DNA of 64,000 bases. Origin: Labyrinthula sp. Ha (Eukaryota > Sar > Bigyra > Labyrinthulida > Labyrinthulaceae). Numbering within the stretch: position 1 is the stretch's first letter; each line of letters opens with the position of its first letter. The notes under the pieces are model-generated. The model saw nothing but the letters and a program-made list of their open reading frames with translations. It was not told where the DNA came from and ran no database searches. The DNA is taken from positions 186,001 through 250,000 of the forward strand of contig JAALGZ010000012.1 in the NCBI GenBank assembly GCA_015227615.1, given 5' to 3'. The translations under genes were made by a program, and so were the position numbers. Shown piece by piece: positions 5,688-56,473 of the stretch.

Positions 5688-6078
5688 TGTGAACCCTGTT
5701 TTGTCTAGTTTGTGAAGTTTAACGTTATTAGTATAAGTAGTTGATATTATAATATTGGATTACCCATAGTTTCCTAGGGTAAAAATAGGTAGTTAAAATA
5801 GTGGCCAATCCAGCCATATTAAGAATTAATAATAACCAATAAAGTAAACAATTTGATTGTTGTATTAGTTTCGCCTAATATCTTGAGAACAATCTTATTA
5901 ATAACTTTAAAAACCCTCGGAATATTTGTATCTTGTTTGAACTTGGTGATCTAGTTTCTCCTAGATCTGTTCAAAGCTTGTTTGATTACGTTTCTTGTTC
6001 GGATTAAGTAACTCTTTCGTGAGTCACTTTTCTTCGGGATTTTGTGTTAGGAATATCAGTCACTCGTCGACCGATAAA
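5688..6078 (+). repeat. 5' LTR
   Basis: Begins TGTGAACCCT and is repeated at 15124-15514 with the same length. The central block, about 5790-5925, is almost identical between copies and contains CCAAT-like and AATAAA-like words. The first 100 bp and the segment about 5925-6010 differ strongly. A perfect 7-bp inverted repeat (GATCTAG 5948-5954, CTAGATC 5961-5967) is kept in both copies. The right end lacks the usual CA, so the exact boundary could be a few bases off. Confidence 0.9.
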
Positions 6079-6116
6079 TTGTTTAAACAATTGAAAACCG
6101 AAACACGATTGAATCT

Positions 6117-9100
6117 ATGGGAACTTTGAAAAAGGGTTCTGCTCGAGTCACTCGATCGGGCAAACAACTTGCCCCATTGAGTGATGAAGACCCTTTATTG
6201 AGTATAGGAGGGGGAGACCCCAAAAATAGGACTTCATCTGTAGATACGGCTAGGGAGGAGAACGAGTTTTTACCGTCTTCCGATCAGCCTACGCAGATGT
6301 CGTCATTTGGAAAGGATGATCCCTCCGTAGGGGGTGAATCTGTAAATAGGAAAAAGGGATTGTCACTGAAGGTTAAGTTAAAAACCCCAGTGACAAGTTC
6401 AAAAAGGAAAGCGATTGCTAAGGCTGTGAAGCCGGTCGTTAAGAAGTCTAAGTCTGTGAAGCCGAAGGCTATGGAATTGGGCGATGAAGGGGGTCCTTCA
6501 TCGAAATTGGTTGAATTGGATATCCCAAAGAGGAAATCTTCTGCGGCGTATTTTAGAGCCAAAGGAGTTCCTAAGAGCTCGAATTCTAGGGAGACGCAAG
6601 CCTTAGATGCGGAAACGACTAGTGGTTCGAGTGGGGATGAGATTGAAGAGGTCGATATTATAGACCGAACGATCGCCAATAAAGAAAAAATTGATGGTAA
6701 TTTGGGTTTTGAGCCTGATTTGGACGCCGTGAGCGATGATGACCGAAGAGTTTTGGCATATCGCAAGTATAGGTTGAAGAAAGGGCAATCGATTAGGAAA
6801 AGAGGTATTTCAGAGGAATCCCTAGATTATGGGGCTGGCGCTGGAGTAACCTCGATTGAAAGGTCAGCTACTTCCGTGAGGAATGCTGAGTCTAATGACG
6901 AACTTTATAAGGAAGTCACTAGAAAATTAAACGATCCTACCAGCGGGAATGCGGCTGGATCTCTTGTTGAGAAAAAGGTTATGGAAAGGGATTTGTTAGA
7001 GTTTGATTCTCTGAATCCTCAGGAGAAGAGGAAAGTTTTTGCTAAGTTGAGAGTGCAATATGAAAGGGCTCGTATTCAAAATAATACAACCCTAGCGGCA
7101 CTAAGGAGCAAGAATGCTGATAATCAAACTATGGGTCTTCCCGGACACCAAGCATGGCCTGAAAAGGTTGGTGGGGAAGAATTGGATATGGAAGCGGCTG
7201 GTCTTGCGACCAACGTGGACATTGGAATGTTTGATGCTATCCAACCTTCGGATCCTAATGCTGAGGAGTTGAAAAGATACGTCATCATTAACTATGTAAA
7301 CTCGCAAGCAGTGTCGACCTACTTGCCGAGTTTAGCTTCTCAGGTTAATTCAACTAGAGAAGAGATATACGGAGAAATCGAAAAAAGAAGATTTCGCAAT
7401 AGGGAAATCCATCAGATGATTGGTGATGCGAGGGGACATGTTGATGCCCTTCGCGTAGATACTGATAAGAAGATGGTCGACTCTAAGGTGTATATCGATA
7501 CCCTTAGAGCTGAGATTAAATCTTTGAGAGATGCTGTTAATGAAGTATCTCAATTGAGGGCTGCTCCTCTAGTGTCCACTGCTAGAGTTAAGCATATGTT
7601 GCCCAAAGTGGATGTTTTGGAGACCTTGCAAATGGAAAAGCTTGGTCAATGGTTGAACGTTGTAGGTGAGCTATTGACGTTGGATCCGTCATTCCAACCC
7701 CGCCGCTTCGTTCATGAAAAATTGTTAGAAAAATTTTGTAGATCCGAAGAGGATAGGGATGTTGTGTATTATTCCCTAAAGGATTATTATGAAAAAGGAA
7801 AGGCTGAGAATCGCCAAGATCCCATGCGACTTCTGAAGGAAGTTAAGTACCCGGCCTCAGGGGACAGCAGGGAGAGATTCCAGACTTATATGATGAACGT
7901 AAGTTCTAAGATTGGGGAAGGTTATGCGGAAAGGCTAGGGGAGGAAGCACTGATTGAGTTATTAAATGAGATAACGAGAAAAGTGCCCTCTAGCTTTAGT
8001 TTGTCGAAGGAGGCGATTCGGAGTAAGGTTAGAAACTTCGAGGATCCCCTTCGGTCGGTGGAGATGCTTCAGACCCTTTTGGAAGCCCAACGTCAGTTTG
8101 CGTTGGACAGAGGTGTCGATGCATCTAATGGTCAGGTTCCAGAGTCGGGACCTAAAATTAAGGAAAGGAAGCCGAGGACACCCTCGGTTAATAGGAAAGG
8201 AACACCTAATGTGAGTAAGGTGGCTAACTTTGTGCCATTTCCAATTGCAGCGAGTCCAGTACCCATTAACCTCACGGGTGAATCAATTGGAGTTTTGAGT
8301 AAGGAAAAAGACTTTCATCAGAAGTGGTATTCCGAGATTCCTTGGAATCACCACAGAACCTGTGCTTATTGTAAGCATCATGGGCATGGTATGCACGATT
8401 GTGTTACTTTTGCCGTAAATGTTTTGAGGAAAGATGATGAAAGGAAACTGAAATCTGTGGAGGGGAATGTTTTGAAAACTCGCCAAGTCCAAGATTTCAT
8501 TAATCGGGCGTTTCGTCGTCAGATGGAAAACCCTGGAGGCAAGTCTAACTTTCAGACACCAAGAGGGTTAACATCATTGAAACATTCTGTGATTGTGAAA
8601 GCCAGAATGATGATGGGGGGCAAGAAATCAGCTAATGATTCGCGCCCGCACTCGGGGTTTAAGGGAAGTAATGTGCTTGCCTTAGCCGCTCCACCCAGAC
8701 AAAAGGAGCTTGAGGATATGAAAGCTATGGTGCCTGAGGGCTATGATCTTATGATTGAGGGTACGAAGGAGTATCCAACTTTGGAAGTGCATGTCGGGGA
8801 AGTATCCCAATTTCGTAACTTTGGTGAAGGTTACGAGATTTGCACTAAATCGGGAAGTGTGATTGGTGATGCTAAATTTGATAGCGGAGCTGAAGTCACA
8901 GTGGGAAGTTGGTGGAAGCACAAGGATTTGCTAGAAAGCTATTCGAGTGCGAGTGGCAACGTTCATGTTGCAAATGATGCCCCGGTTAAGATTTTAGCCG
9001 TAGGTTATGTGGGACTTGTTGTTAAAGTCCATGGTTTAGAAAGTAGGGCTTGCCCAAGGGCCAAAGTTGTATTGGTTAAATCGCAAGATTGGCCAAGCTT

Positions 9101-9167
9101 TCTAATTGGGAGACCCGAATTCAGAAAGATGGGATTAGATCCCGCTCAAAACTTGGGACTCGGGTAG
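6117..9167 (+). CDS. Retrotransposon ORF1: Gag with zinc knuckle, plus aspartic protease
   Basis: 1016 residues, starting 39 bp after the 5' LTR. The N-terminal 120 residues are charged, with a lysine-rich block (about 76-120) that could bind nucleic acid or act as a nuclear signal. A predicted coiled coil lies at about 410-475, followed by a helical capsid-like region (about 485-690). Residues 749-762 form a CX2CX4HX4C zinc knuckle (CAYCKHHGHGMHDC), the classic nucleocapsid RNA-binding motif. The C-terminus is a retropepsin-type protease: the catalytic DSGA motif begins at D922 and the LIGRPEF string resembles the conserved hydrophobic-G motif. The product would package element RNA and process the polyprotein. 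ORF1 shares its frame with ORF2. Domain calls rest on motifs; the capsid assignment is inferred from position. Confidence 0.88.
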   Translation: MGTLKKGSARVTRSGKQLAPLSDEDPLLSIGGGDPKNRTSSVDTAREENEFLPSSDQPTQMSSFGKDDPSVGGESVNRKKGLSLKVKLKTPVTSSKRKAIAKAVKPVVKKSKSVKPKAMELGDEGGPSSKLVELDIPKRKSSAAYFRAKGVPKSSNSRETQALDAETTSGSSGDEIEEVDIIDRTIANKEKIDGNLGFEPDLDAVSDDDRRVLAYRKYRLKKGQSIRKRGISEESLDYGAGAGVTSIERSATSVRNAESNDELYKEVTRKLNDPTSGNAAGSLVEKKVMERDLLEFDSLNPQEKRKVFAKLRVQYERARIQNNTTLAALRSKNADNQTMGLPGHQAWPEKVGGEELDMEAAGLATNVDIGMFDAIQPSDPNAEELKRYVIINYVNSQAVSTYLPSLASQVNSTREEIYGEIEKRRFRNREIHQMIGDARGHVDALRVDTDKKMVDSKVYIDTLRAEIKSLRDAVNEVSQLRAAPLVSTARVKHMLPKVDVLETLQMEKLGQWLNVVGELLTLDPSFQPRRFVHEKLLEKFCRSEEDRDVVYYSLKDYYEKGKAENRQDPMRLLKEVKYPASGDSRERFQTYMMNVSSKIGEGYAERLGEEALIELLNEITRKVPSSFSLSKEAIRSKVRNFEDPLRSVEMLQTLLEAQRQFALDRGVDASNGQVPESGPKIKERKPRTPSVNRKGTPNVSKVANFVPFPIAASPVPINLTGESIGVLSKEKDFHQKWYSEIPWNHHRTCAYCKHHGHGMHDCVTFAVNVLRKDDERKLKSVEGNVLKTRQVQDFINRAFRRQMENPGGKSNFQTPRGLTSLKHSVIVKARMMMGGKKSANDSRPHSGFKGSNVLALAAPPRQKELEDMKAMVPEGYDLMIEGTKEYPTLEVHVGEVSQFRNFGEGYEICTKSGSVIGDAKFDSGAEVTVGSWWKHKDLLESYSSASGNVHVANDAPVKILAVGYVGLVVKVHGLESRACPRAKVVLVKSQDWPSFLIGRPEFRKMGLDPAQNLGLG

Positions 9168-9264
9168 GGAATCGGCAGCCAGGCTAACCACCTGGTGGGC
9201 CAGATACAAGGAAAGATCTCAACTCTCATTGTTTATAGATATGTAAATAGTGTCTTGTGGTTAG
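9165..9264 (+). promoter_or_regulatory. Candidate read-through signal between ORF1 and ORF2 (UAG plus pseudoknot)
   Basis: ORF1 ends in UAG and ORF2 continues in the same frame. Eleven bases after the stop, CCAGG (9179-9183) can pair with CCTGG (9191-9195). The 7-base loop between them (9184-9190, CTAACCA) is perfectly complementary to TGGTTAG at 9258-9264, giving a possible H-type pseudoknot. Gammaretroviruses and some LTR retrotransposons make Gag-Pol by UAG read-through stimulated by such a downstream knot. The pairings are seen in the sequence; the use for translation is inference. Confidence 0.5.
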
Positions 9265-12200
9265 AGAGTAGATTAGAGATCTGTAATTGGCCTAGTGTGA
9301 TATTTGTATGTACTATTTCGGTTAAACTTAAAGGGATTATGAATTATTTGACATCGAAAGGGTATAAGCTACTTGAAGTAGTCCGAGTGTTGCACTGGGT
9401 ACCTAATAAATTGATTAAGTCGGTGAGGAGGTATATGGTTCTTGGTAGGGGTATTTGCCAGTCTCGCGTTAGTAGACAAAAGCACAAGAATGTGCTGATT
9501 GAACCCCATGGTACGGTCGGGGAGGTGGCTCGGTTGATGCTGATGGCTAAATCGCTGCAGGATGGCGCCATTTCAGTTTACCCTCAAATCTCGGTCGGCA
9601 ACGTACCAAAAACCTTAATGAATCTTGATGGACATGTCGAGGTCCGATTCATTAAGGCGAGGCAATCACTTAGTGAAAACCTCACCTTGGGTAGACGCCT
9701 ATCTAACGAGGACGCTCGGGGATGTTCTACAGCGGCTTTATATTCCGCATGGGAAAGAGTCTTGGATGACGGACTAAGGGATGAACCCAAGTCATTTAAC
9801 GTCGACTCATGGATTGAACCTATACAACCGACAAGGATTTATGCCTCTATTGGTAGTCTCGATTTGGTTGAGCGCATAAATTCAGGGAATTTTGAAGGGA
9901 TTGATTTTGGAGAAATTATAAAATTGCGTCGTCATGTCGAGGACATCGCTGATGACGATTTGGGAGATAACCTTCTTCCTGATGTAGGGGAAGGTTTGAG
10001 TTTGGAGGATGAGGAACCTTTGATCAAGAAAGCCATCAATGAGATGGTAGATCGTTCGGAAGCCTCACTGGAAATGAAAAAATTACTTAGGAAATTGTGT
10101 TTGAGCTTTTGGGATGTTTTTGCCACGGACCACACTCAGACTAAGATTAGTGGGATGTCACCAATGCCGGTGTATCCTTTGGAAAATTTTGAGTTTGCCT
10201 ACCCCAGGGTTAGGCCAATGTCTTCGGAAAAATCGAATTTCATTAGGGATAAGCTGCTAAGTATGGCAGAAAGAGGATTGGTTACCAAGGTTAAGTCCGC
10301 TGAGTTCGGCTCGGTGGTATTTGCGGTGCCAAAAAAGGGAAATAAATTGAGAATGGTTGTTGATCTTGTTGATGTCAACAAGATTTTGAGAAGGGATGTT
10401 AATCAACTCCCTCATTTGGAAACTTGTTTTGATAATCTTGCGGGTAGCAAGTATTATGGTAGTTTTGATGTTGTTTCGGGCTTCGATCAGTTAGGAATAA
10501 CTGAAGAAGCTAAGAAGTATTTTAACATTGTATCGGAGCATGGCACTTTCCAGCTCCAATTTGCACCTATGGGATATCATAGTACCCCAGTATTCTTCCA
10601 TCAGAGGATGGTTGATGAGGTGGTGGGGGAAAGATTGGTAAATCGTCCAAGGAATGGAGTCATTCAATGGATTGATGATAGTCTGCTATATGCAGATGAC
10701 TTTAACGAGTATTTGAAATTATTGGAAATTATGTTGTCGAACCTAAGGAAAGCTAAGGTTCGTATTAGTCCTACTAAGTCAATTATTTTGGCAAAGGAGA
10801 TTGTGTATTGCGGCCGTAAGGTGGCAAATGGGAAATGGAATTTTAAGAAGGAGTACTATTCACGGATCTTGGATGTACCAAGGCCGGAATATGTCTACCA
10901 ATTGGCATCAATGATGCATTTGTCTCAGTGGTTATCTTTGGCAATTCCAGAGTTAGCTGAGTTGAGGAGTGTTATTATGGAATTCTACCCGGAAATGAGG
11001 GGTAAGAAATCGGAATTAAGGAGGAAAAATGAGAGGGTTCATTGGTCCACTGAGCTAACAGAGGCCTTTGAAAGATTTCTGAAAATGATTAGTATTGCGG
11101 CAAAGCAGAAGTTGAGCCTGTATGATAGAACCCAGGACTTGTTGTTAATAACAGATGCTTCTGGCATGTTCTTCAGTTCGATTCTGATGCAAGCCGATAC
11201 TTCTCAAAGAAATCGAAAACTTTTGGATAAAAGGGTAGTTCCTATGATGTTCTTTTCGGGGAAATTTCAAGATACCCAAACTAGATGGGGCATCGTACAT
11301 AAGGAACTATACCCTATCGTGAAAACTTTCAACAGGTTGTCGTATCTGTTACCTTTTCATCCTACGCCAATACAGGTGTATACGGATCATTTGAATTTGA
11401 GGGCCATTATAAAAGGAGGATCTAAGATCAACCATGGCCATTTGAATAGGTTGCAACGATGGGTTTTGACCCTGCAACAAGCAGATGTAGAGTTACATCA
11501 TATTAAGGGGGAGGATAATGTCTTTGCTGATATGCTTTCGCGTTGGGCGGCTACGCCAGAGCGAGAGAAGCAGAGAGTTGCCTCCATTAGGATAATGAGA
11601 GCGGCAATACGCCGTGATCGAAAGGAATCGGATGCGTCTTTGGGACCTCAACTGTCATTGACGTCTGGAGAGCGCAATTATTATAGGAGGATGTTCAGAC
11701 ATCCAGTGGAAGTCGATGAGGGTCTGGATCGGTGGGCTCCGTTGAAGGATAGACACCCCGATTCTGATCCTGATTCGTCAATTACGGAATTCTCGAACCC
11801 TTGGTATGAGAGTGATGGGATAAACCATGGCCTCAGGCCGGATGGGGGTTTAGAGATAAAGATTGAGAAACCGAGTCTGGAAGAGGAGTACAGTCGGTTA
11901 GCTCTAGTGGATACGGAATCTGCCGTATCCCTAGACGAAATTGGTACATGGGTTTCGTCCCAGATGGCAAAATCGGGGATTCCTTCTGATGAAGAAGTCA
12001 AACTTGAAGTTCCTAGAGTAGGACTTGATGTGATTGTTTCTGAGCTGAGATTGTCTCCGAAGAAGCAAAAGGAAAAATTGACTTATGAAAGGATGCGAGC
12101 CTTGGATAAGGATCGCATCTCGTGTTTGAATCCGTATTACCAAGGAGATTGGAAGCGGATATCGGAAAAGGAACTTTTGGATGCTCAAAAGCGTGAAGCT

Positions 12201-13439
12201 TTGGGTGATGGTATAAAAATCTCTGAGGAGGAGGGAAGGATTATCATTCCCAAATCATTGTTTGAGCGCCAACTCGTTCACATTCACTTGGCGAATAGAC
12301 ATGGGTCTAGAGTCCAGGATGTGGCGGAGGTGAGGCGATTTAAGTGGATAATACCTTCGGGTTATGGTATAAAGGTGTCAGCGGAAACGGTGATGCTGGG
12401 ATTAAGATCTAATTGCGTTCACTGTAATAGGGCACCAAAATTGGTAAAAACGAATTTGAGATTGGTTACTGAGGCTAGAAGACCTAAAGAGGTTCTTGTA
12501 GCTGATGTTTTGTATGTTAATGCTAAAGGTTATATTTTGGTTATAACGGATGCATTTTCTCGGTTTTGTTTTCTTCATTACGCTCCTAGAGCTGATGCAG
12601 GAACTGTAGTTAGGGCTCTAAGTAAGTTTCATACTTATTGGAGATTAGAGGTGGAGTTTACCCTTGTAACTGATAGGGGCTCCCATTTTGCGAACCAATT
12701 ACTTGAACTGTTACAAAAGGAGGTCCGATTTACCCATAACTACGCGGTGAGTTATGCTAGTTGGACCAATGGGGAAGTAGAAATTGTTCATAGGAAAGTT
12801 CTGAGCTTCTTGCGAAGTTTGGTTTCAGAACTTAGATTACAATGGGATCAGTGGCCGGACGTTGTCGAGTCAGTAATGACTGCGGTAAATGAGGTTCCTT
12901 TGCCTAGTAGGAAGCTTCCGGGCATGAACGATGTCCCGAGTGCTAATCTGCTGTTTTTGAATACAGATCCTACTAGGGAATACATTGAAACGGAGGCTTT
13001 TCCCAAAGTAATCTATCGGAAAATTGGAGATAGGCAGGGTGCGATTAGGGTTGATAAGGATATCCTATATCGTCTGTCGATGGAGTTCCGACGTGAGCTG
13101 GATGAGATGCATAGTCAGGTGGCTGATTACGTCTCGCTCATGAAGAGGAAAAGGAACGATTATTGGAATAAGCGCCAAAAGAGAGTCGACAAGGCTTGCA
13201 TACAATATGTGCCTGGAGACTGGTGCTTAATTAGTACAAAGAATACCCCTAGGGAGAGTAACAAGATTAAGTTGATTTGGTCTGGTCCAGTTAATGTAAT
13301 CGAGTTACTCTCGTCGAATGTATATAGGGTTAGATTATTGAATGGGGAAACCCAGATTGTACATGGAAGTCGTTTATACTTCTATGAGCCTGATGGTTTC
13401 GTTCCAGATGACTCACTTCGAAAAGTTTTTAGAAATTAG
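9195..13439 (+). CDS. Retrotransposon ORF2: reverse transcriptase, RNase H and integrase
   Basis: 1414 residues counted from a GTG; the frame is open from 9168, and no true ATG start is expected if it is made as a Gag-Pol extension. The reverse transcriptase has its catalytic pair at D494-D495 (WIDDSLLYADD). RNase H begins with LLITDASG (D654) and ends near HIKGEDNVFADMLSRW. A spacer of about 200 residues without a recognisable domain follows. Integrase has an HHCC zinc site (H1031, H1036, C1074, C1077) and a DDE triad at D1104, D1160 and E1196, with the textbook 35-residue spacing between the second and third. A GPY/F-like module lies near the C-terminus (about 1350-1400). The enzymes would copy element RNA and insert the DNA. 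The first 250 residues are unassigned. Confidence 0.92.
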   Translation: MGQIQGKISTLIVYRYVNSVLWLESRLEICNWPSVIFVCTISVKLKGIMNYLTSKGYKLLEVVRVLHWVPNKLIKSVRRYMVLGRGICQSRVSRQKHKNVLIEPHGTVGEVARLMLMAKSLQDGAISVYPQISVGNVPKTLMNLDGHVEVRFIKARQSLSENLTLGRRLSNEDARGCSTAALYSAWERVLDDGLRDEPKSFNVDSWIEPIQPTRIYASIGSLDLVERINSGNFEGIDFGEIIKLRRHVEDIADDDLGDNLLPDVGEGLSLEDEEPLIKKAINEMVDRSEASLEMKKLLRKLCLSFWDVFATDHTQTKISGMSPMPVYPLENFEFAYPRVRPMSSEKSNFIRDKLLSMAERGLVTKVKSAEFGSVVFAVPKKGNKLRMVVDLVDVNKILRRDVNQLPHLETCFDNLAGSKYYGSFDVVSGFDQLGITEEAKKYFNIVSEHGTFQLQFAPMGYHSTPVFFHQRMVDEVVGERLVNRPRNGVIQWIDDSLLYADDFNEYLKLLEIMLSNLRKAKVRISPTKSIILAKEIVYCGRKVANGKWNFKKEYYSRILDVPRPEYVYQLASMMHLSQWLSLAIPELAELRSVIMEFYPEMRGKKSELRRKNERVHWSTELTEAFERFLKMISIAAKQKLSLYDRTQDLLLITDASGMFFSSILMQADTSQRNRKLLDKRVVPMMFFSGKFQDTQTRWGIVHKELYPIVKTFNRLSYLLPFHPTPIQVYTDHLNLRAIIKGGSKINHGHLNRLQRWVLTLQQADVELHHIKGEDNVFADMLSRWAATPEREKQRVASIRIMRAAIRRDRKESDASLGPQLSLTSGERNYYRRMFRHPVEVDEGLDRWAPLKDRHPDSDPDSSITEFSNPWYESDGINHGLRPDGGLEIKIEKPSLEEEYSRLALVDTESAVSLDEIGTWVSSQMAKSGIPSDEEVKLEVPRVGLDVIVSELRLSPKKQKEKLTYERMRALDKDRISCLNPYYQGDWKRISEKELLDAQKREALGDGIKISEEEGRIIIPKSLFERQLVHIHLANRHGSRVQDVAEVRRFKWIIPSGYGIKVSAETVMLGLRSNCVHCNRAPKLVKTNLRLVTEARRPKEVLVADVLYVNAKGYILVITDAFSRFCFLHYAPRADAGTVVRALSKFHTYWRLEVEFTLVTDRGSHFANQLLELLQKEVRFTHNYAVSYASWTNGEVEIVHRKVLSFLRSLVSELRLQWDQWPDVVESVMTAVNEVPLPSRKLPGMNDVPSANLLFLNTDPTREYIETEAFPKVIYRKIGDRQGAIRVDKDILYRLSMEFRRELDEMHSQVADYVSLMKRKRNDYWNKRQKRVDKACIQYVPGDWCLISTKNTPRESNKIKLIWSGPVNVIELLSSNVYRVRLLNGETQIVHGSRLYFYEPDGFVPDDSLRKVFRN

Positions 13440-15096
13440 ATACTCAGAAGGAGAATACTTCTTAAGAGTTAGATGGAGGGGTTTCGAACCCGTAGATGAT
13501 ACATGGGAGCCGTTGCTCACCATGTATAGGGATGTGAAGGAGCTAACTCTTAAATTCCTGGGAGAAAAGCGAATTTCAAATAGGAGAAAGTTAGTTAGGA
13601 AGCAAGCGCAAGCTTGGTTAGATAGGAAATTTGCTATAGATGTGTCGGCAGCTTGGGTTGGGAGACTCCGCCCGAGCCTGCTACACTACTTAAGGGATAA
13701 GGAAGATCTTAGTGTTTGGGGGAAACTCCCTGGACGAAAAGATTTTGTATCGGGTTGGAAAACTTTTGATCATAAGTTAATTAGGAACCTTATTCTGAAA
13801 TTTGGAATGGGAAATTTTGAGCAATTTACGCAATATATGCCTAATAAATCGAAGGCGATGATGTATTCGTATTTGCAAAGAAAGTTAGGTAGGATGGACT
13901 TGGCTCCCTTGAGGGGTCAGTTCATAGATATAGACAAGGGAAGAGGAACCTCGGAGAGGTTTTCCCTTGATAATTTGGAATTTGATAGGAGATTTGATTC
14001 GCTGGGATCAGCGAAATCATTTCTAATGGAGACTTGTCCTGAGGGAGTAAGTCAATCGTATAGGAACGCTTTCGAACGAAAGAGAAAAGAGGTTGAGACG
14101 ATGGTAAAAATTTGTGAAGATCGTTTCATTAAACTTTATAAAAATCTGGTGTCGAGATCTGGGATGAAATGTACGTATCTCTTATACTCACTAGAGCTAA
14201 GCCGTAAGAGGCACCTACACGAAGTCTTGGATAAAGATTACCCTAAAGAGTTAGTTTCAAAAATTGAAGGTATACTTGTTGCTCCAGTGGAGTGCGAGTT
14301 ATCTGGGGAAAGTCCTGCCATAGGATTTGAGCATGTACAAGCTTTTACGCTTAAACGTCTTTTTGGCAATTTAGTTTTGGTTGGTTTTGAAGGGTGTCCG
14401 TTCTGGACAAGGATTTGTGTCCCACCTCGGGATAAACTATGGTTTACTGCGGACTTATATAAGTCGGCAATTTTGACTGAGTGGCCTGGAGACAAGGTGG
14501 ACTTGTTATTAATGGATCCACCTTGGGCGATAGGTCAGGCGAATCCTATTAGAGGATTGAGGGTTCCGTATGCGCGGAAACCCGATTCGCAAGTTTTGAA
14601 TTTGAATTTTGAAACCTTGAAGGCTTCCTTCATTGCTGTTTGGGTAATCGATCGGACTTGGGAATTGACTTTTAATGAAATGTTTGATAGGGGATATGAA
14701 CTTGTTCATGTCATTGAATGGATAAAGCTAGCGCCGAGTGGCAAGATAAGAACATCGTTAGGATATTATTTTCAGCACTCGGCAGAGGCTTTACTGATCT
14801 TTGTTCAAAAATTGGAAAGGTTAATTGGTGACATTGCAGAGAAAATTAACCTGTTAAGACAGGAAAAGGTGATCTTTGCAGATCGTTTGATTGAAGGAGT
14901 TAAACCTCGAAAAGCATACGAATTATTTGAAAGAATATTTTTGAAAAGGCATCTTAAGGTTGAATTGTTTGCGAGATGTGCAAATTTGAAATCGGGTTGG
15001 ATTCAAATTGGATTAGAAGTGGATCCTAGAATTTCTGATTTAGTTTTCGGGTGTTACAGACCTGAAAAATCTATGGCTGAAAAGACTAGTGAATAG
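13342..15096 (+). CDS. Retrotransposon ORF3: chromodomain, SANT/Myb-like segment, MT-A70 adenine methyltransferase
   Basis: 584 residues, overlapping the end of ORF2 by 98 bp in another frame. Residues 25-75 are a chromodomain (WRGFEPVDDTWEP, with Y39, W45 and W55 at aromatic positions), the histone-reading module that steers chromovirus integration. Residues 139-183 resemble a SANT/Myb repeat (W-x3-D-x2-L start, FGMGNF, then a third helix). Residues 385-490 match the MT-A70 family: DPPW at 392-395, then VWVIDRTWEL, GYELVHVIEWIK and a final LGYYFQHSAEAL, in the order seen in METTL3, METTL4 and ciliate MTA1. Known MT-A70 enzymes transfer methyl from S-adenosylmethionine to N6 of adenine in RNA or DNA. 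The inferred role is methylating element or target DNA or RNA. Active DPPW suggests a catalytic rather than a scaffold (METTL14-type) member. How the frame is expressed is not visible. Confidence 0.82.
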   Translation: MGKPRLYMEVVYTSMSLMVSFQMTHFEKFLEIRYSEGEYFLRVRWRGFEPVDDTWEPLLTMYRDVKELTLKFLGEKRISNRRKLVRKQAQAWLDRKFAIDVSAAWVGRLRPSLLHYLRDKEDLSVWGKLPGRKDFVSGWKTFDHKLIRNLILKFGMGNFEQFTQYMPNKSKAMMYSYLQRKLGRMDLAPLRGQFIDIDKGRGTSERFSLDNLEFDRRFDSLGSAKSFLMETCPEGVSQSYRNAFERKRKEVETMVKICEDRFIKLYKNLVSRSGMKCTYLLYSLELSRKRHLHEVLDKDYPKELVSKIEGILVAPVECELSGESPAIGFEHVQAFTLKRLFGNLVLVGFEGCPFWTRICVPPRDKLWFTADLYKSAILTEWPGDKVDLLLMDPPWAIGQANPIRGLRVPYARKPDSQVLNLNFETLKASFIAVWVIDRTWELTFNEMFDRGYELVHVIEWIKLAPSGKIRTSLGYYFQHSAEALLIFVQKLERLIGDIAEKINLLRQEKVIFADRLIEGVKPRKAYELFERIFLKRHLKVELFARCANLKSGWIQIGLEVDPRISDLVFGCYRPEKSMAEKTSE

Positions 15097-15103
15097 TCTT
15101 TTA

Positions 15104-15123
15104 GAAAGAGGAGGAGGGGGAGG
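15104..15123 (+). other. Polypurine tract
   Basis: A 20-base run of only A and G ends exactly where the 3' LTR begins. This is the expected primer site for plus-strand DNA synthesis and supports the LTR boundary at 15124. Confidence 0.85.
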
Positions 15124-15514
15124 TGTGAACCCTATTTTAGTTAACGTGTGATCTTTAACACGTTTAGTATAAATATTTTATAGTAGTAGTAGAGTGCCCG
15201 TATTATCTTAGGGTAAGAAATAGGTAGTTTAAAATAGTGGCCAATCCAGCCAATTTAAGAATTAATAATAACCAATAAAGTAAACAATTTGATTGTTGTA
15301 TTAGTTTCGCCTAATATCTTGAGAGCAATCTTATTAATAACTTTAAAAACCTTCGGAATAACTTTATATTGTCTAAATTTGGTGATCTAGTTTCTCCTAG
15401 ATCTATTCGGACTAGTTTAATTTGTCTTTGGTGCTTAGATTAAGTAACTCTTTCGCGAGTCACTTTTCTTGGGCAATTTGTGTTAGGAATATCAGTCACT
15501 CGTCGACCGATAAA
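15124..15514 (+). repeat. 3' LTR
   Basis: Same length and ends as the 5' LTR, about 15% different by hand alignment. The 7-bp inverted repeat recurs at 15384-15390 and 15397-15403. A TATA-like GTATAAATA near 15167 is present here, while the 5' copy reads GTATAAGTA, so the two differ in a possible promoter element. The following sequence does not repeat the bases that precede the 5' LTR. Confidence 0.9.
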
Positions 15515-16960
15515 AGATTTAATTCCATCCTCATCTTCATGAAAGGTTGAGTTGGGACGGAGCACCGAGTCATGGGAGTCATGCTTAAAAGTATACTCCA
15601 ACCCAAACTTGAATGAATAAGTTTGATTAAGGAAAGAAGTTGATCAAATTCTATAGAAAAAGTAGAGAAAGATACTATAACAATAAATTTTTAACTCGTA
15701 CTCTTCACTCGGTATATTTTGACGAACTTTACTTTGTTTTCAGTCACCTTTAAATTTCATGAAAGTATGGTGAAGCCGCCACTGCACGCATCACTGATCC
15801 TGACAAAGCATGAGAAACTGTGTTTTGTTTTTAAGTTCTTTGCCAAAATAAATTTTAAGCAAACGTTTGACTCTGGAGTCAAAACATAAATTCCCGTTTT
15901 TAAATACTATCTTTTCCTGTGCAAGTTTGTTCAGGTAAATAACATTTCATCGGCTTCTTGGAACTGAAGAATCAATGCGGATAAAAGAATTATAAGTTAT
16001 ATAAAAAGTTAAGCAAAATCAACAGGACAAAGAAAAAGTCGAGTCTCACATTTTTTGGAAAGAATAAGGTGCTTTTATCTTAGGAGCTCTCATTGCAATA
16101 CTTATACTCTATCCATAAGGTTACTGGGATCAGTTAATTACTTTCAAGCACTTTCGTTTACATCGTACAAACATGTTTTACTAATGCATAAAAGCAACTG
16201 TCGTTCTGCAGATCCTATACTTCAACTTATTACTGAGGAAATAATCGATTGAACAGTTAGTACCCATACTAATTTAAGGCTGTAGTTGAGATCCATAGAA
16301 AACGCGATTCAGTGCAAGCGAACAATGGATAATATTGTTCTTACACCCACGCGAATGTTCAATGTGCATTGGAAACCTAACTTGACCGGCTCTTGTCAGG
16401 CTTAGTTAACGTTAACTACTGCTTAAAAAGGTTTTAGCCAGTGCTCGAAGTTTTAATACATTCTTGGCACTATCTTAGCTTTAACCATTACCTAAAGTCT
16501 ATTGTATGAGAAAAAAAGCGGGCAGTATAAAAACTACTGTTCTAGGAATTATACCGATGAATCTTACCTGAACACAATTTCAAGGAGAAGTATTGACTCG
16601 TTAGAGAGTGTTAGTATTTAGAAAGTACATTGTACTTCCTCTAGCACAATAGTGACTATGGTCAAATTTTTTATTTGACATTAATTTCGCCTATTCTTGC
16701 TTCAATATAGTACATTTAAAATTATCCCATGCATATCGCACAATACTGATGTCATATTATTATGGGGTAGTTGTATGCGATGCCAAAATTTTGAAATACG
16801 TTTTCATACCTCCTGCTCTTGAAGGAGTATGTTAAAAATAACACTTATATCCCCAAATCAGTCATTATAATCTATTTTGTTCTTTCTAAAGACAAATTCA
16901 GGACCAAGGTTTGATATATGGCTTGAGTCAGCGCCAACATAAATTATCGAGTGTAGTTAA
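15515..16960. other. AT-rich spacer
   Basis: No gene, RNA or repeat recognised. Right flank of the retroelement. Confidence 0.4.
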
Positions 16961-20632: not shown

Positions 20633-20658
20633 AATAAGTCCCTACAAGAAGACACCAA

Positions 20659-22575
20659 ATGTTGTTTCGATATACTCTTTTGATATTAGCTTTCTTTGCA
20701 GTCTCTGTCCACTCTGTTGCTCAAGTTCCTTTAATAACTGGCAACCTTACTTTTATAACTACAAGATATTCTAACTTTATTGGAGGCTTTGATGAAGAGT
20801 GCTCCATCATAGCCCCAATGGTTAAACTTGCCCCTGGGGAAAATTTGTGTGATTTAGACACAATTCAAACAAATATTACTGGACAAGTTCTTATTACCTT
20901 TATAATATTGAACTTTGGTTGTTTTGAAGAAGTTGCATATGAGAATGCGATCAAACTTGGTGCAATAGCACTCATAGATGCTGTTGGAATACCTCCTGGA
21001 TCCTACGAAAGTATTCACAATGCAGGACAGAGTTTCCAGAAAGGAGATATTCCTTTTCTTCAAGTTGGAACTGAGTTCTTTGGCACCTTTGGTATTGAAG
21101 GTTTAAGTCCTGCGTTTAATTTCTTGAACGGAACACCAATAGTTATTCAAGGTTGTGGAGATACAAATCTTTTTAGTAAATGTTTTCTTTCCTATCAAAT
21201 TATATATATTTTCTTCTCTTTCCTTGCGTTATATGGAATTTTTTTATCTTATAAAGCAGCTAAAAAAGTAAAAGGATCTGCTTCAAGTCGTCCTAGAATA
21301 GCTCTTATTGCGTATGAAGCTTTGTTCTTATTATTTACCGCTGTTGTATTATTCTTTGGAATAGAATTAAGACAATGCAAAAACCTGTTAGATGGAAGTG
21401 TTATTTCATCGCGTGCTAAAGATGTGCTTGGTGTGTTACAAATAATAGGAAATGTTCATGGATCACTTCTAAATGCCATCTATTGGAAAGCTTTACGAAA
21501 AGGTTGCTTCTTGAAAGACTCGAAGTCAGCAATTTATTGGCGAAAGGAGTTTTTTCTTTCTCCATTGCAGATAGTTTCTGCTGCTTCAACTTTATCTCTT
21601 GTTATTGGCCTAATTAATGCAATTGACAATTTTCACGCAGGAAAAGTTGAACAGTTTAAAAGAGTATTGCGATTCGCTGTGTCACTTGACATTATTTGTG
21701 GTATAGTTCTTTTTATTAGTGTTTTACAATTTATTCTTACTTTAAGAAAAGTATTACCAAATCCAAATCAACAATCAAAGTTTGTAGAAGAAGCTGGTTT
21801 TATTGGTAATGTAAAATTTGTTCTTGAAACTATGAAAGAAGTAATGAAAGGAAAAAACTTTGCGTTGAGATTAACCAGGCAGCAAACGAATAATATAGCT
21901 ACTGTTAATTCCAAGCTTATTAACTTATCACTCCACCTTTCTAAATGGCTCACACTTTATGTGATTATCATGGTATTGAGTTCATACTGTTTGTTCTTTG
22001 GATTCTTAGATAATTTACCTTTTGGCTTGTTTCAAAATGATCCTGAAATGTGCAAATCAATTTCTTTTCTTGTTGCTTATGTATGTATAAGAATCTTTAC
22101 CTCGTACTGTAAGATCATTGGACTTGGAGGTCCATCGCGAATAAGAAATATGGAAACTGAAAGCACTATAAAAGAACTTAACAGCACACGTTTATTGAAT
22201 ACTCTTCGAAGCATGTCGAACTTGAGTTCAAGAGATAGAGCTCTAACACCACCTAGATTGACATTACCTGTAACTGAGCAAGCTATGGAGCACTATATGT
22301 CAAAGGGAAGTGATATAAATGTAAAGCGAACGCTTGATAAGAATCCGGAACCAGTTAGTATGAAGACACTATTAAGGCCTACTCTTGGTAGAGGAGTTCA
22401 TAAAAATGGTTCATCCTTCTTTTCTCTTGGTAGACGCAGTAAGAAGATTTCCTTGACAACTTTAGGTACTCCTCCATTGTCACCAAGAGGTAAGAAATTA
22501 TGGGAAACAGTTAGAGAGAGAAATAATCCTCCCGTAAACTGTAAACTAAACAGTTGCAAAGATAGTATGGTATAA
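20659..22575 (+). CDS. PA-domain seven-transmembrane receptor-like protein (paralog A)
   Basis: 638 residues, one exon. Signal peptide 1-21 (cleavage near SVAQ). Ectodomain 22-179 resembles a protease-associated (PA) domain: C64, then TGQVLITFIIL, C88-FEEVAYENAIKLGA, IPPGSY and IPFLQVGTEF follow the PA order, a fold used for ligand or protein binding outside the cell. Ectodomain cysteines are C48, C64, C88, C166 and C175; N-glycosylation sites are N29, N72 and N158. Seven hydrophobic spans lie at about 180-200, 214-236, 256-277, 300-320, 339-362, 430-450 and 467-489, with a long loop between spans 5 and 6 and a basic, Ser/Thr-rich tail of about 145 residues. This is GPCR-like topology, but I recognise no standard GPCR motif. 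ATG context has A at -3 (CCAAATG). First of four paralogs. Function unknown; a surface receptor is inferred. Confidence 0.82.
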   Translation: MLFRYTLLILAFFAVSVHSVAQVPLITGNLTFITTRYSNFIGGFDEECSIIAPMVKLAPGENLCDLDTIQTNITGQVLITFIILNFGCFEEVAYENAIKLGAIALIDAVGIPPGSYESIHNAGQSFQKGDIPFLQVGTEFFGTFGIEGLSPAFNFLNGTPIVIQGCGDTNLFSKCFLSYQIIYIFFSFLALYGIFLSYKAAKKVKGSASSRPRIALIAYEALFLLFTAVVLFFGIELRQCKNLLDGSVISSRAKDVLGVLQIIGNVHGSLLNAIYWKALRKGCFLKDSKSAIYWRKEFFLSPLQIVSAASTLSLVIGLINAIDNFHAGKVEQFKRVLRFAVSLDIICGIVLFISVLQFILTLRKVLPNPNQQSKFVEEAGFIGNVKFVLETMKEVMKGKNFALRLTRQQTNNIATVNSKLINLSLHLSKWLTLYVIIMVLSSYCLFFGFLDNLPFGLFQNDPEMCKSISFLVAYVCIRIFTSYCKIIGLGGPSRIRNMETESTIKELNSTRLLNTLRSMSNLSSRDRALTPPRLTLPVTEQAMEHYMSKGSDINVKRTLDKNPEPVSMKTLLRPTLGRGVHKNGSSFFSLGRRSKKISLTTLGTPPLSPRGKKLWETVRERNNPPVNCKLNSCKDSMV

Positions 22576-31499: not shown

Positions 31500-31522
31500 A
31501 AAGTTTTCCTCCTTGAAATAAA

Positions 31523-33442
31523 ATGTTACTTAAATATATTCCAGCTGTCTATATTTTACTCTTACAGACAGTTTATTCAAGAGCTCAAGTTCCTTTGATA
31601 ACTGGTAACCTTACTTTTTTTACACCGAGGTACTCAAACTTCATTGGCGGATTTGATGAAGAGTGTTCAATCACAGCTCCAATGGTTAAACTTGCCCCTG
31701 GAGAAAATTTATGTGACTTAGATACTATCCAAACTAATATTACGGGACAGGTTCTTGTTACTCTTGTTATCCTAAGTTTTGGTTGTTATGAAGAAGTTGC
31801 ATATGAGAATGCGATCAAACTTGGTGCTGTTGCAGTGTTAGATGCTGTTGCTATTCCGCCCGGATCGTATGAAAGTATCCACAATGCAGGACAAGAATTC
31901 CAAAAGGGAGATATTCCTTTTCTTCAAGTTGGTACTGAGTTTTTTGTAACATTTGGGTTTGAAGGTATTAGTCCTGCGTTTGATTTATTGAATGGAACAC
32001 CAATAAATATAGAAGGATGTGGAGATACAATTCTGTTTAGCAAATGTTTCGAAGCATATAAAATTACTTACATTCCTTTTTCTATTATAGCTTTGTTTGG
32101 AGCAATTCTTGCATATAGAGTTGCAAAACGAGTAAAAGGCTCTGCTTCAAGTCGCCCCAGAATAGCCCTTATTGCTTATGAAGCACTATTCTTAGTATTT
32201 ACTGCAGTGGTACTATTCTTTGGACTTGAATTAAGACAATCTAAAAATTTGTTGAGTGGTAATATTATTTCAGCTCGTGCTAAGGATGTTCTTGGACTTT
32301 TGCAAATAATTGGTAATGTTCACGGGTCTCTACTCAATGCAATCTATTGGAATGCTCTAAGAAAAGGATGCTTCCTGAAAGATTCCCAATCAGCAGCATA
32401 TTGGAGAAAGGAATTCTTCTTCTCACCTTGGCAATTTATTTCAATTGCTTCCACTGCTACTCTTGCTGTTGGACTTATTAGAGCAAATGACAAGTTTCAT
32501 ACCGGTGAAATTGAACAATTTAAAAGTTTATTGAAGTTTGGTGTTTCTGTTGATGTCATTTGTGGTATTGTGCTGTTTCTTAGTATGTTACATTTTATTC
32601 TTACCCTAAGAAAAGTACTTCCCAAATCTAAGACAGAGTCTGGACTCTTGAGAGAAGAAACTTGCATGGAAAAGTTACTTTTTCTTTGGACAACTCTTAA
32701 AGCTATTGTGAAAGGAAGAAATTTGTCTCTAGGACTAACAAGGCCGGGAACTAATAATGTATCTGAGGTTCATGGCAAACTTATTAACTTATCTCTGCAC
32801 CTTTCGAAATGGCTTATGCTCTATGTTATTATTATGATATTTTGTTCTTATTTTCTGTTATTTGGTTTCTTAGAGTATTTACCTTTTGGTTTACTCCAAA
32901 ATGATCCTGATATGTGTAGATCTTTTTCGTTTTTTGTCTCCTACATATGCTTAAAAATTTTGACATCATATTGTAAGATAATTGGACTTGGTGGTCCAAA
33001 GAAGGTAAAAGATACAGGAACTGGAAGTTTTAGAAAATATTTTAGTAGTAACCGTATTATTGATACATATAAAGATACATCTCAAATGAGTCCAAGAATA
33101 CAAGTACCTGTTGCCCCAAGGCCAGTATCTCCTGCAGAGCATTGTGTAGAACAAAATAAACCTGATGAAGGTTATACAAATAATAAACAGGTTGCTAAAA
33201 CTTCTTCAAAACAAGATTATATAAACTTAATATTGAAACCTAGTCCAGGTAGGGGGATTAGGAAAACCGAATCAACATACTCCTCTTTTAAAGATAGGGA
33301 TAGAAGAGTATCTATTATAAGTACCAATAGTCCTCCAAATAAAAAAAAGGGTAACAGAAACATGCATTCACGAAACCGAAGAAATAAAAAGCTTCCAAAA
33401 AATAACATGACCTCTGATAAGAACATATTTGATTATGCTTAG
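31523..33442 (+). CDS. PA-domain seven-transmembrane receptor-like protein (paralog B)
   Basis: 639 residues, one exon, closest to paralog A and colinear with it. Signal peptide about 1-21 (YSRAQ). The ectodomain keeps all five cysteines and the PA-like order (LCDLD, TGQVLVT, GCYEEVAYENAIKLGA, IPPGSYESIHNAG, IPFLQVGTEFF). The seven spans and the signature strings RPRIALIAYEALF, NVHGSLLNAIYWNALRKGC and SYCKIIGLGGP are retained. Differences from A gather in the signal peptide, span 4, the loop between spans 5 and 6, and the tail. The tail is long (about 145 residues), Lys/Arg-rich and unlike that of A apart from a short PSPGRGIRK / PTLGRGVHK match. Start ATG follows AAATAAA, with A at -3. Inferred to be a plasma-membrane receptor or sensor; no ligand or signalling partner can be read from sequence. 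Confidence 0.82.
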   Translation: MLLKYIPAVYILLLQTVYSRAQVPLITGNLTFFTPRYSNFIGGFDEECSITAPMVKLAPGENLCDLDTIQTNITGQVLVTLVILSFGCYEEVAYENAIKLGAVAVLDAVAIPPGSYESIHNAGQEFQKGDIPFLQVGTEFFVTFGFEGISPAFDLLNGTPINIEGCGDTILFSKCFEAYKITYIPFSIIALFGAILAYRVAKRVKGSASSRPRIALIAYEALFLVFTAVVLFFGLELRQSKNLLSGNIISARAKDVLGLLQIIGNVHGSLLNAIYWNALRKGCFLKDSQSAAYWRKEFFFSPWQFISIASTATLAVGLIRANDKFHTGEIEQFKSLLKFGVSVDVICGIVLFLSMLHFILTLRKVLPKSKTESGLLREETCMEKLLFLWTTLKAIVKGRNLSLGLTRPGTNNVSEVHGKLINLSLHLSKWLMLYVIIMIFCSYFLLFGFLEYLPFGLLQNDPDMCRSFSFFVSYICLKILTSYCKIIGLGGPKKVKDTGTGSFRKYFSSNRIIDTYKDTSQMSPRIQVPVAPRPVSPAEHCVEQNKPDEGYTNNKQVAKTSSKQDYINLILKPSPGRGIRKTESTYSSFKDRDRRVSIISTNSPPNKKKGNRNMHSRNRRNKKLPKNNMTSDKNIFDYA

Positions 33443-43830: not shown

Positions 43831-43972
43831 AACTTCTAAGAGTTACTAAATTTATTCCTAGTAGCCTTTTTTATTCTTGTCTGTGTACTAACTTGTACAC
43901 CTATTTAACAAGTCCGAACGGCAACAAAACCACTTCCAGGACCAAAGTTATTATATTTTTTCCGGCCAGAAC

Positions 43973-45649
43973 ATGACGAATTATCTTGGCTTTTTTTTAT
44001 TTCTCTCAGTGTTCCTTACACTTGTAAACGCCAGTGCTCAAGTTCCTCTTGTCGCTGGTAACTTTACTTTCTCAACTCCAAGGTATTCAAATTACATGGG
44101 AGATTTTGACGAAGATTGTTCCATTACAGCTCCTATGGTCAAACTCGCACCCGATGAAAATTTATGTGACTTGGATAGTATCGAAACAAATGTTACAGGA
44201 AGAGTTCTTATTACGTTTATTATTTTAAGGTTTGGTTGTTATGAAGAAATTGCTTATGAGAACGCAATAGAACTTGGTGCTATTGCACTGATAGATGCTG
44301 TTTTCATGCCACCTGGATCTTATCATAGTGTTCATAATGCGGGACAAAGTTTCAAAAAGGGGGAAGTTCCTTTTTTGCAAGTAGGAAATGAATTCTATGA
44401 ATTGTTTGGAGACGAAGACTCTAGTCCTGGTTTTGATATATTAGATGATACTCAAATTAATATCAAAGGTTGTGCAGATATAACACCGGTTATAGAATGT
44501 TATGAAATATACCCCTATGTTGAGAAAACTTTTGCACTTGCAGCAGGATTTGGCATATTTCTAGCATACAAGGCATTTAGAAAGCTAAAGAACACACCTG
44601 CAACTATACCAAGATTAGCACTTATTGCTTATGAGTCATTGTTCTTATTGTTTACTGCTGTTGTACTTTTTTTTGGACTAAGTCTTAGACAATCCGTGAA
44701 TTGGGTTGATGGAAGAATTGTTTCTGCTCAAGCTAAAGATGTGTTTGGAACACTTCAAATAGTTGGTGTTATTCATGGTTCTCTTATGAACGCCATCTAT
44801 TGGAACGCACTGCGCAAGGGCTGTTTTCTAAGAGAAGCCATAACATCACAATACTGGAACAAAAACTTTTTCCTTTCTCCATGGCAACTCGTTGCACTAG
44901 GAATATCAATTTTCTTCTTTGTTGAGTATACAATACTTCTTGTAAACTATTATCAATGTGATGTTGAGGATTTTGAGGCTTTTCTTCGAATTGTTATATG
45001 GGTAGATATTCTAGGTGGTGTAGCTTTTTTTCTGACTATGATGTATTTCATACTTACTCTAAGAAACATTTTGGTTGGATCGAAAAGTCAAGATGGCTTC
45101 TTTAATAGGAAAAGCTGCAGTAATAAACTTCATTTCTTGTGGAATGCTTTTAAAGGAGTGATCATAGTTGAAATGGTAACCTACAGCAAAGGCTTACCAA
45201 ATAGTACCACTGTCAGAGAAATTAATACAAAGCTACTCTTTCTATCAATTCACCTGTCAAAATGGTTAATCCTCAGTGTTATCCTTATGATAACTGCCTA
45301 CTGTTTGATTCTTTTTGGTTTCTTTGACAGTTTCCCTTATGGATTAGATCAAGATGATCCTGCAGGCTGTAGAATCTTTTCTTTCTATTTTGCATATGTC
45401 AGCGTTAGAGTATTCTTATCATATTGTAAAATCATTGGATTAGCAGGACCTTCACGAAAAAAATATTCAGAAATAGAAGCTATAGAAAAAGAATTTACGA
45501 AAAATCAAACTGTGTATAATCGGCGACAAGTAAGCATTGGAGGAGCATCTCTTACTACGAATACAAAAAGTATTTTTGATCACCCTACGTTTAACAAAGG
45601 TATTGACAATAAAATTCACTATAGAAATGAAGTCGATATTAGTTTGTAA
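43973..45649 (+). CDS. PA-domain seven-transmembrane receptor-like protein (paralog C)
   Basis: 558 residues, one exon, about 80 shorter than A and B because of a reduced tail. Signal peptide about 1-22 (VNASAQ). The ectodomain has the same PA-like order (LCDLD, TGRVLIT, GCYEEIAYENAIELGA, PPGSYHSVHNAG, VPFLQVGNEFY) and an acidic stretch, FGDEDSSPGFD, shared with D but not with A or B. Span 2 follows IPRLALIAYESL, and span 3 carries HGSLMNAIYWNALRKGC. Spans 4 and 5 differ most from A and B. The loop between spans 5 and 6 is about 75 residues, and the last span ends SYCKIIGLAGPSRKK. The C-terminus EVDISL resembles EAEISL of D, a hydrophobic end that could be a PDZ-type ligand. Inferred surface receptor-like protein of unknown ligand. 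Confidence 0.82.
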   Translation: MTNYLGFFLFLSVFLTLVNASAQVPLVAGNFTFSTPRYSNYMGDFDEDCSITAPMVKLAPDENLCDLDSIETNVTGRVLITFIILRFGCYEEIAYENAIELGAIALIDAVFMPPGSYHSVHNAGQSFKKGEVPFLQVGNEFYELFGDEDSSPGFDILDDTQINIKGCADITPVIECYEIYPYVEKTFALAAGFGIFLAYKAFRKLKNTPATIPRLALIAYESLFLLFTAVVLFFGLSLRQSVNWVDGRIVSAQAKDVFGTLQIVGVIHGSLMNAIYWNALRKGCFLREAITSQYWNKNFFLSPWQLVALGISIFFFVEYTILLVNYYQCDVEDFEAFLRIVIWVDILGGVAFFLTMMYFILTLRNILVGSKSQDGFFNRKSCSNKLHFLWNAFKGVIIVEMVTYSKGLPNSTTVREINTKLLFLSIHLSKWLILSVILMITAYCLILFGFFDSFPYGLDQDDPAGCRIFSFYFAYVSVRVFLSYCKIIGLAGPSRKKYSEIEAIEKEFTKNQTVYNRRQVSIGGASLTTNTKSIFDHPTFNKGIDNKIHYRNEVDISL

Positions 45650-56290: not shown

Positions 56291-56473
56291 CAAGGCACCA
56301 ACCTTTTTCCCCAAGTTTGAACACTTTGAACTTTCACAGAGCACTACTAACATACGCAGTGGTTCTCCTTCTTTTTATGGGTTTATAACTTCTGGAACTC
56401 TGTGGCTAAGGTAAACTGTAACGACACAACTCCTTGAGGTTGTTACGAATAATTCGTTAGCAAAGGTAATACA

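Follow-up and report, generated by a model that had tools for sequence, protein, structure and literature searches.

A Ty3-type retrotransposon of Labyrinthula sp. Ha with predicted homologues of p1 and of the AMT1/MTA1 adenine methyltransferase in one chain

The module behind the integrase

The window, a stretch of 64,000 nucleotides of the Labyrinthula sp. Ha genome (assembly GCA_015227615.1, contig JAALGZ010000012.1, positions 186,001 to 250,000 of the forward strand), contains a long terminal repeat (LTR) retrotransposon of Ty3 type, in which the order of gag and protease (PR), reverse transcriptase (RT), RNase H (RH), integrase (IN) and chromodomain holds. Behind the chromodomain lie a Myb-like segment and an MT-A70 methyltransferase domain. 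Sequence profiles, with some support from predicted folds, indicate that the element carries relatives of two subunits of the MTA1 complex (MTA1c), a eukaryotic writer of N6-methyladenine (6mA), in one chain, because the Myb-like part is a predicted homologue of p1, the DNA-binding subunit, and the enzyme is of AMT1/MTA1 type, a relative of the catalytic one. The parts of this module, together with the open reading frame (ORF) in which the earlier note on this DNA placed them, are as follows.

13342 to 15096, + strand: ORF3 of the earlier note, 584 codons; its first 24 residues belong to an alternative frame of pol
13414 to 13578, + strand: chromodomain, ORF3 residues 25-79, continuous with the integrase C-terminus in relatives
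13750 to 14151, + strand: predicted p1 (AMTP1)-like segment, a Myb-like domain with C-terminal extension, about residues 137-270, from the family profile
14392 to 15036, + strand: MT-A70 domain, predicted AMT1/MTA1 type, about residues 351-565; Pfam core at residues 387-559, or 14500-15018
14515 to 14526, + strand: catalytic motif DPPW, residues 392-395, followed by the AMT1-type P-x-RG; read from the sequence

The MT-A70 core with DPPW at residues 392-395, which the earlier note had recognized from the sequence, is highly significant in the Pfam search that the note had proposed (residues 387-559; E 5.6e-19; 69.1 bits, the cut-off being 23.9). In a 28-row alignment of the module, H479, E482 and some further positions vary hardly or not at all. 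Searched against Protein Data Bank (PDB) sequences, the window sequence alone matches MTA1 at 6.6e-25 and METTL3 at 3.2e-9, and the family profile of the 28-row alignment matches MTA1 at 7.7e-56, METTL3 at 1.5e-37, p1 at 4.3e-17, METTL14 at 2e-15 and a METTL4-type chain at 1.5e-15. A chromodomain at the integrase C-terminus, the mark of chromoviruses, is found by the same profile (HP1-beta, 1.8e-8); the domain, claimed at residues 25-75, is recovered by the single sequence at 25-79 (MPP8, 1.8e-6), though Pfam Chromo falls under its cut-off in ORF3 (0.0035) and in every protein scanned.

The segment called SANT/Myb in the earlier note (residues 139-183) does have a Myb-like part; that generic label is too broad, and the segment appears to be specifically p1-like, because a profile made from 20 rows of the middle part of the module, drawn from more families than the 28-row alignment, finds p1 (3e-26 over p1 residues 19-161) ahead of the next Myb protein, SNAPC4 (4.7e-9), and of p2 (0.026). 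By this comparison it is a better homologue of p1 than of other Myb proteins. The single window sequence matches p1 at 0.019 (residues 137-198); Pfam Myb does not match the window sequence itself; in L010, a related copy, it reaches 25.0 bits, above the cut-off of 24.4. When the predicted fold of this part is compared with known structures, p1 chains of MTA1c rank first, weakly, and no Foldseek match has E <= 0.001.

The earlier note had all three domains in an ORF of their own. The ORF exists, with the domains inside it, but it is judged from related copies to be a frame break of the window copy near the integrase end and not a design of the element, because in relatives the chromodomain, p1-like part and MT-A70 domain all continue in the pol frame, contiguous with the integrase C-terminus; ORF3 as an independent ORF is therefore rejected. 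Most of the longest ORF3 matches in related copies have residue 25 or 28 as their first, and open frames there are often far longer, as in the 1988 stop-free codons at C46:1103535.

Families and the type of the enzyme

Eleven families, A to K, have the order integrase, chromodomain, p1-like part, MT-A70. Their members are:

Families A-D: A, the window copy and L010; B, L022 and L064; C, L077; D, L061
Families E-H: E, L062; F, L054; G, L056 and L058; H, L073
Families I-K: I, L074; J, L075; K, L076

Representatives of A, B, D, E, F and G were run through Pfam (for F, the MT-A70 frame only), and the rest were assigned by the 20-row alignment, an AMT1 profile (H 169, I 145, J 123, K 139 and C 35 bits) and reading; in F and G the integrase is seen only as its end. 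The copies L054 and L058 carry frame breaks. Modules of D, E and G in the 28-row alignment are 18-23% identical to that of the window.

Families D, E and H have, behind the integrase, a retropepsin-like DSGA segment flanked by the p1-like part on one side and the MT-A70 domain on the other (L061:6180-8258, L062:6219-8303, L073). Pfam protease matches to this segment in D and E are below cut-off; A and B have a protease motif at the Gag end. The segment is apparently a relocated retropepsin.

DPPW followed by P-x-RG occurs in all 120 proteins of a set that is biased, its members having been retrieved for their similarity to the host AMT1, and is not found in human METTL3, human METTL14 or five viral rows; P-x-RG after DPPW, DPAW or DPPY occurs in 14 of 15 element rows, the exception being L077 of family C. 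The main MT-A70 tree comprises 25 rows (13 element, 10 AMT1-type, human METTL3 and human METTL14), with L077, P0131, the five viral rows and 18 of the 28 AMT1-type rows outside it, and it places elements and AMT1 together against METTL3/14 with support of 92/85. This split and P-x-RG together support assignment of the element enzyme to the AMT1/MTA1 type rather than to METTL3/14. By profile score the enzyme is closer to MTA1 than to METTL3, METTL14 or METTL4; the tree compared METTL3/14 only. A quick tree of 48 rows leaves the deep order without resolution, several long branches meeting, and puts L077 with A and B (97). A single capture, or single origin, of all the element MT-A70 domains is not proven by these trees.

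In trees of 10 rows, integrase and MT-A70 share 5 of 7 splits, the conflicting ones having support of 100/99 and 76/79 for integrase and 46/12 and 95/97 for MT-A70. Because of the shared splits, long common descent of integrase and enzyme fits the trees, with exchange possible.

Copies in the genome, intactness and selection

The assembly has 50,840,425 bases in 153 contigs. ORF3 gives 80 matches against it, and the best 150 of 354 Pfam MT-A70 candidates are all over cut-off, one of them being the host AMT1. Pooling these 150 with 64 of the 80 ORF3 matches (those judged to cover the core) and 11 of 125 further matches (those judged new) yields 222 separate MT-A70 places among the matches listed, a figure in which some broken copies may have been counted twice and further MT-A70 genes of the host may be included. 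Queries from two distant families (97 and 87 rows) define 150 RT places, RTs remote from both queries being unsampled; among the matches listed, 127 of the 150 have an MT-A70 domain at most 6 kb downstream on the same strand, against 1 upstream and 1 on the opposite strand. Likewise, 82 of the best 150 of 549 integrase-core places have a listed MT-A70 domain at most 4 kb downstream on the same strand, with 0 upstream and 1 downstream on the opposite strand as controls. Two integrase (rve) places chosen from 68 places without MT-A70 (L078, L079) are of Ty1/Copia type by domain order, integrase before RT, and show no MT-A70 in the pieces read.

Copies with the domain order that the earlier note proposed to look for thus exist in several families. 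The note had also allowed that the domain might be a one-off host fragment absent from other copies; instead, MT-A70 recurs across families, with a low ratio of nonsynonymous to synonymous substitution rates (dN/dS). By a simple counting method restricted to copies whose module is open (7 from family A and 10 from family B), median dN/dS of the MT-A70 domain is 0.078 in A (19 of 21 pairs usable, 0.061-0.323) and 0.103 in B (45 of 45 pairs, 0.057-0.268); that of the Myb part is 0.084 in A (15 of 21 pairs, up to 0.758) and 0.077 in B (45 of 45, up to 0.387); and that of the linker is 0.408 in A and 0.084 in B. A census of 59 element loci (L001-L060 minus L038, the best-scoring places of the ORF3 and Pfam MT-A70 searches) finds the domain full-length in 57, of which 41 are stop-free, 31 with DPPW and 10 with DPAW.

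Some copies look recent. In L061 the LTRs match without a difference along 443 bp, and a single frame stays open for 2363 codons from stop to stop. LTR identity is 99.4% over 346 bp in L063, 99.1% over 435 bp in L064 and 96.4% over 385 bp in L062, where the matches reach an end of the sequence compared and may be cut by it.

Layout of the window copy

The assignment to Ty3/Gypsy made in the earlier note agrees with the features found: LTRs, a polypurine tract, gag and PR upstream, and RT and RNase H ahead of integrase.

5688 to 6086, + strand: 5' LTR, beginning TGTGAACCC; ends set by inspection
6087 to 9164, + strand: ORF1, Gag-PR, open from 6087, first ATG at 6117; motifs by pattern
ORF1 open-frame codons 759-772, + strand: CCHC zinc knuckle in Gag, by pattern only
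ORF1 from codon 931, + strand: aspartic protease motif FDSGA near the ORF1 end, by pattern only
9165 to 9167, + strand: in-frame TAG between gag-PR and pol, with a hairpin downstream (9165-9215 region)
9168 to 13439, + strand: ORF2, pol; RT, RNase H and integrase all above Pfam cut-offs
10326 to 10814, + strand: RT (Pfam RVT_1, 5.9e-14)
11124 to 11480, + strand: RNase H (Pfam RT_RNaseH, 3.8e-17)
12477 to 12746, + strand: integrase core (Pfam rve, 9.3e-10)
15107 to 15123, + strand: polypurine tract, abutting the 3' LTR; from the sequence
15124 to 15522, + strand: 3' LTR, beginning TGTGAACCC

ORF1 has no Pfam match above cut-off. The TAG and its flanks are alike in the window copy, L063 and L064 (families A and B), with the hairpin downstream there, and the TAG is possibly a readthrough stop; the hairpin has only a slight advantage in folding over shuffled sequences (z -1.48). 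At the RT catalytic box the sequence is WIDD or WLDD (codon 501 of pol in the window; L061); the usual box is YxDD.

Both LTRs are 399 bp long, and 340 of 403 aligned columns (84%) are identical. Their differences are unevenly spread although the frames are almost open, for which recombination between subfamilies would be a guess. No target-site duplication is evident flanking the window copy; L061 has TAAC on both sides, provided that the LTR ends one base inside the repeat match.

Elsewhere in the window lie four related, apparently multi-pass membrane-protein genes on the same strand (20638-22575, 31517-33442, 43892-45649 and 56453-58147), spaced 10.9-12.5 kb apart; besides these, no open frame of at least 150 codons is listed between 15500 and 64000.

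Host AMT1 and p1

The host AMT1 (L038) is an open frame 327 codons long that contains the complete MT-A70 domain; nothing in the 3.5 kb examined matches pol, and its protein is identical to EukProt P0010. Among named proteins, those of Mucochytrium and Hondaea come closest to it (65% over 62-63% of the query), and it groups with them (90/80), away from the element enzymes. This grouping, which concerns one gene, points to a labyrinthulomycete-like stramenopile as the probable host, and the hint towards early-diverging fungi in the earlier note finds no support.

When the Tetrahymena p1 segment is compared with the genome (best 150 of 309 candidates), two places at 8.2e-32 and 4.5e-29 precede the element frames, which begin at 4e-19. 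These two places (C1:1284461-1284844, C100:135979-136314) lie away from any listed RT or MT-A70 place and are perhaps the host's own p1 genes.

Occurrence elsewhere

Two protein database searches, by shared words with length limits, matched 9 and 2 proteins. P0004, P0005 and P0007 are identical to loci of this genome over their whole length and P0009 over 360 of 377 residues; the others are 59-99% identical to the few loci compared. All are taken to belong to this genome because their names share one style. The element was thus found only in this genome, by a kind of search that does not show absence elsewhere. In IMG/VR, neither a single-sequence query nor the full pol found a match, and an alignment query found 8 distant viral MT-A70 loci, of which all five tested are without P-x-RG. 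The literature searched, as listings by title and passages of the papers cited here, names no MT-A70 or AMT1 enzyme in a retrotransposon; nor do the cited passages of a survey of 6mA that covers genomes and transcriptomes of 231 eukaryotic entries (PMC12695648) name an AMT1 retrotransposon.

Interpretation

The cited passages of that survey describe AMT1 as a relatively static family tied to transcription and as the ancestral eukaryotic DNA 6mA writer, report that p1 and p2 co-occur exclusively with AMT1, and place 6mA at ApT near the starts of expressed genes (PMC12695648). The explanation that we favour, with a probability of about 0.55, is that a Ty3 lineage fused p1 and an AMT1/MTA1 enzyme behind its chromodomain and marks its own complementary DNA (cDNA), provirus or target with 6mA; the fusion is shown by sequence comparison with support from fold prediction, and the mechanism is one that we infer. 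The module would be made as the C-terminal part of Gag-Pol and would travel with the integrase in the particle and pre-integration complex; adenine at ApT would be methylated on element cDNA, fresh provirus or target chromatin; and a new copy would thereby start with the mark that AMT1-bearing eukaryotes put on transcribed genes. The functions of MTA9 (AMT6/7) and p2, if needed, might come from the host, or might be dispensable since p1 is tethered in cis. The mark may, as the earlier note supposed, be a permissive one on the element itself or its target. A fuller version is doubtful, though a serious possibility: that this single-chain p1-AMT1 writer marks its own cDNA or provirus at ApT, gives insertions active-gene chromatin and bypasses host control of where AMT1 acts, and that the device was kept through many families and has largely replaced Ty3 elements lacking it in this genome.

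Several points weigh against marking by such a writer. MTA9 and p2 are not seen in the element, and in Tetrahymena both are needed with MTA1 for good DNA binding (PMC9174199); in AMT1 species so far, according to the cited passages of PMC12695648, transposons are not enriched in 6mA; and ApT in the two LTRs tested is at 0.83 and 0.74 of expectation, with no enrichment. The MT-A70 tree contains no AMT6/7, AMT2/5 or METTL4 rows, the AMT1 clade in it reaches only 71/73, and the element enzymes have long branches and do not form a single clade, families I and J falling outside the rest (80/80); by fold comparison alone MTA1 and METTL3 are tied. The catalytic motif is altered in family E (DPAW) and family J (DPPY), and family C has no P-x-RG and only 35 bits against the AMT1 profile. 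Finally, 19 of the 150 RT places have no MT-A70 domain within 6 kb among the matches listed, and a further 4 run off a contig.

The altered motifs of E and J would suit a module that serves mainly for targeting or tethering, in which the integrase would be positioned by chromodomain, p1 and enzyme core as readers of chromatin, for instance of hemimethylated ApT close to transcription starts, and catalysis would be secondary; the module is contiguous with the integrase, and chromodomains target LTR-retrotransposon integration according to the cited passages of PMC2864245. All 41 stop-free domains examined keep DPPW or DPAW, however, and the low dN/dS of the catalytic domain is more than binding alone might demand, so that we consider this reading unlikely. 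It is rather improbable that the enzyme acts on RNA, placing N6-methyladenosine on element genomic RNA or transcripts for export, packaging or escape from decay as METTL3/14 does on mRNA: the MT-A70 fold is common to METTL3, which ties with MTA1 by fold, and an enzyme kept in Gag-Pol would be packaged with RNA, but profile score, tree and P-x-RG all put the enzyme nearer MTA1 than METTL3, the fused p1 homologue is related to a protein described, in the cited passages of PMC12695648, as co-occurring only with AMT1, and Pfam lists no CCCH-finger family for the modules scanned. Protection or disguise of cDNA, whereby 6mA would block a host nuclease or a sensor of unmethylated DNA without lasting effect on chromatin, would draw on the same anatomy as the favoured explanation and is one option proposed for DNMT-bearing retrotransposons in the cited passages of PMC5890265; nothing seen points to a 6mA-sensitive nuclease, though the host was not searched for one, and we give this reading little weight. 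Barely credible is the view that the module is no trait of the element and stems from a single capture of part of a host AMT1 gene or from an error of assembly: the host does have an AMT1 gene (L038/P0010), but the many families and copies with the same order, with 127 of 150 RT places linked among the matches listed, contradict this, and both the splits common to the integrase and MT-A70 trees and the position of the host AMT1 speak against it.

The fusion of relatives of the 6mA machinery to an integration enzyme suggests that elements may bring their own epigenetic writer. AMT1 with p1 in a retrotransposon clade would amount to a natural gain-of-function experiment, a direct test of whether 6mA instructs active chromatin, and would possibly offer biochemistry a minimal one-chain MTA1c. 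If 6mA marking by the element is true, genome parasites would be shown using an activating mark.

Comparison with known systems

Like the MTA1c/AMT1 complex of ciliates and the Mta1-Mta9-P1 complex described in Mucorales (PMC13297926), the element has an MT-A70 subunit with DPPW and P-x-RG and a p1 homologue; unlike MTA1c, which consists of MTA1, MTA9, p1 and p2, it has the predicted p1 and MTA1 homologues as one chain, fused to a chromodomain integrase. Like chromoviruses as characterized in the cited passages of PMC2864245, it has LTRs, the order gag-PR-RT-RH-IN and a chromodomain behind the integrase, a likeness of domain layout; unlike them, it has about 500 extra residues with p1 and AMT1 parts and, in families D, E and H, a protease motif between p1 and MT-A70.

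Other retrotransposons carry other methyltransferases. The cited passages of PMC5890265 report Dnmt3 in a Klebsormidium Gypsy element and in Symbiodinium DIRS, DNMTs in Symbiodinium long interspersed elements and, together with those of PMC3266345, Dam-like enzymes in DIRS elements. KnitGypsy-Dnmt3 of Klebsormidium is likewise of Gypsy type, and its Pol frame includes a DNA methyltransferase of eukaryotic kind that is subject to purifying selection; its enzyme is instead a Dnmt3, a writer of 5-methylcytosine, and the element is described with DIRS-like repeats in PMC5890265, a paper with 0 mentions of MT-A70, whereas no C5 cytosine methyltransferase family is listed by Pfam for ORFs 1-3. DIRS elements with a Dam-like enzyme share a methyltransferase domain downstream of RT-RH but have, in the cited passages of these two papers, a tyrosine recombinase, in contrast to the rve (DDE) integrase and MT-A70 domain of the Labyrinthula element. 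Thus, methyltransferase-bearing Ty3 elements are known; what is new here is the predicted class of the enzyme and the partner subunit fused to it.

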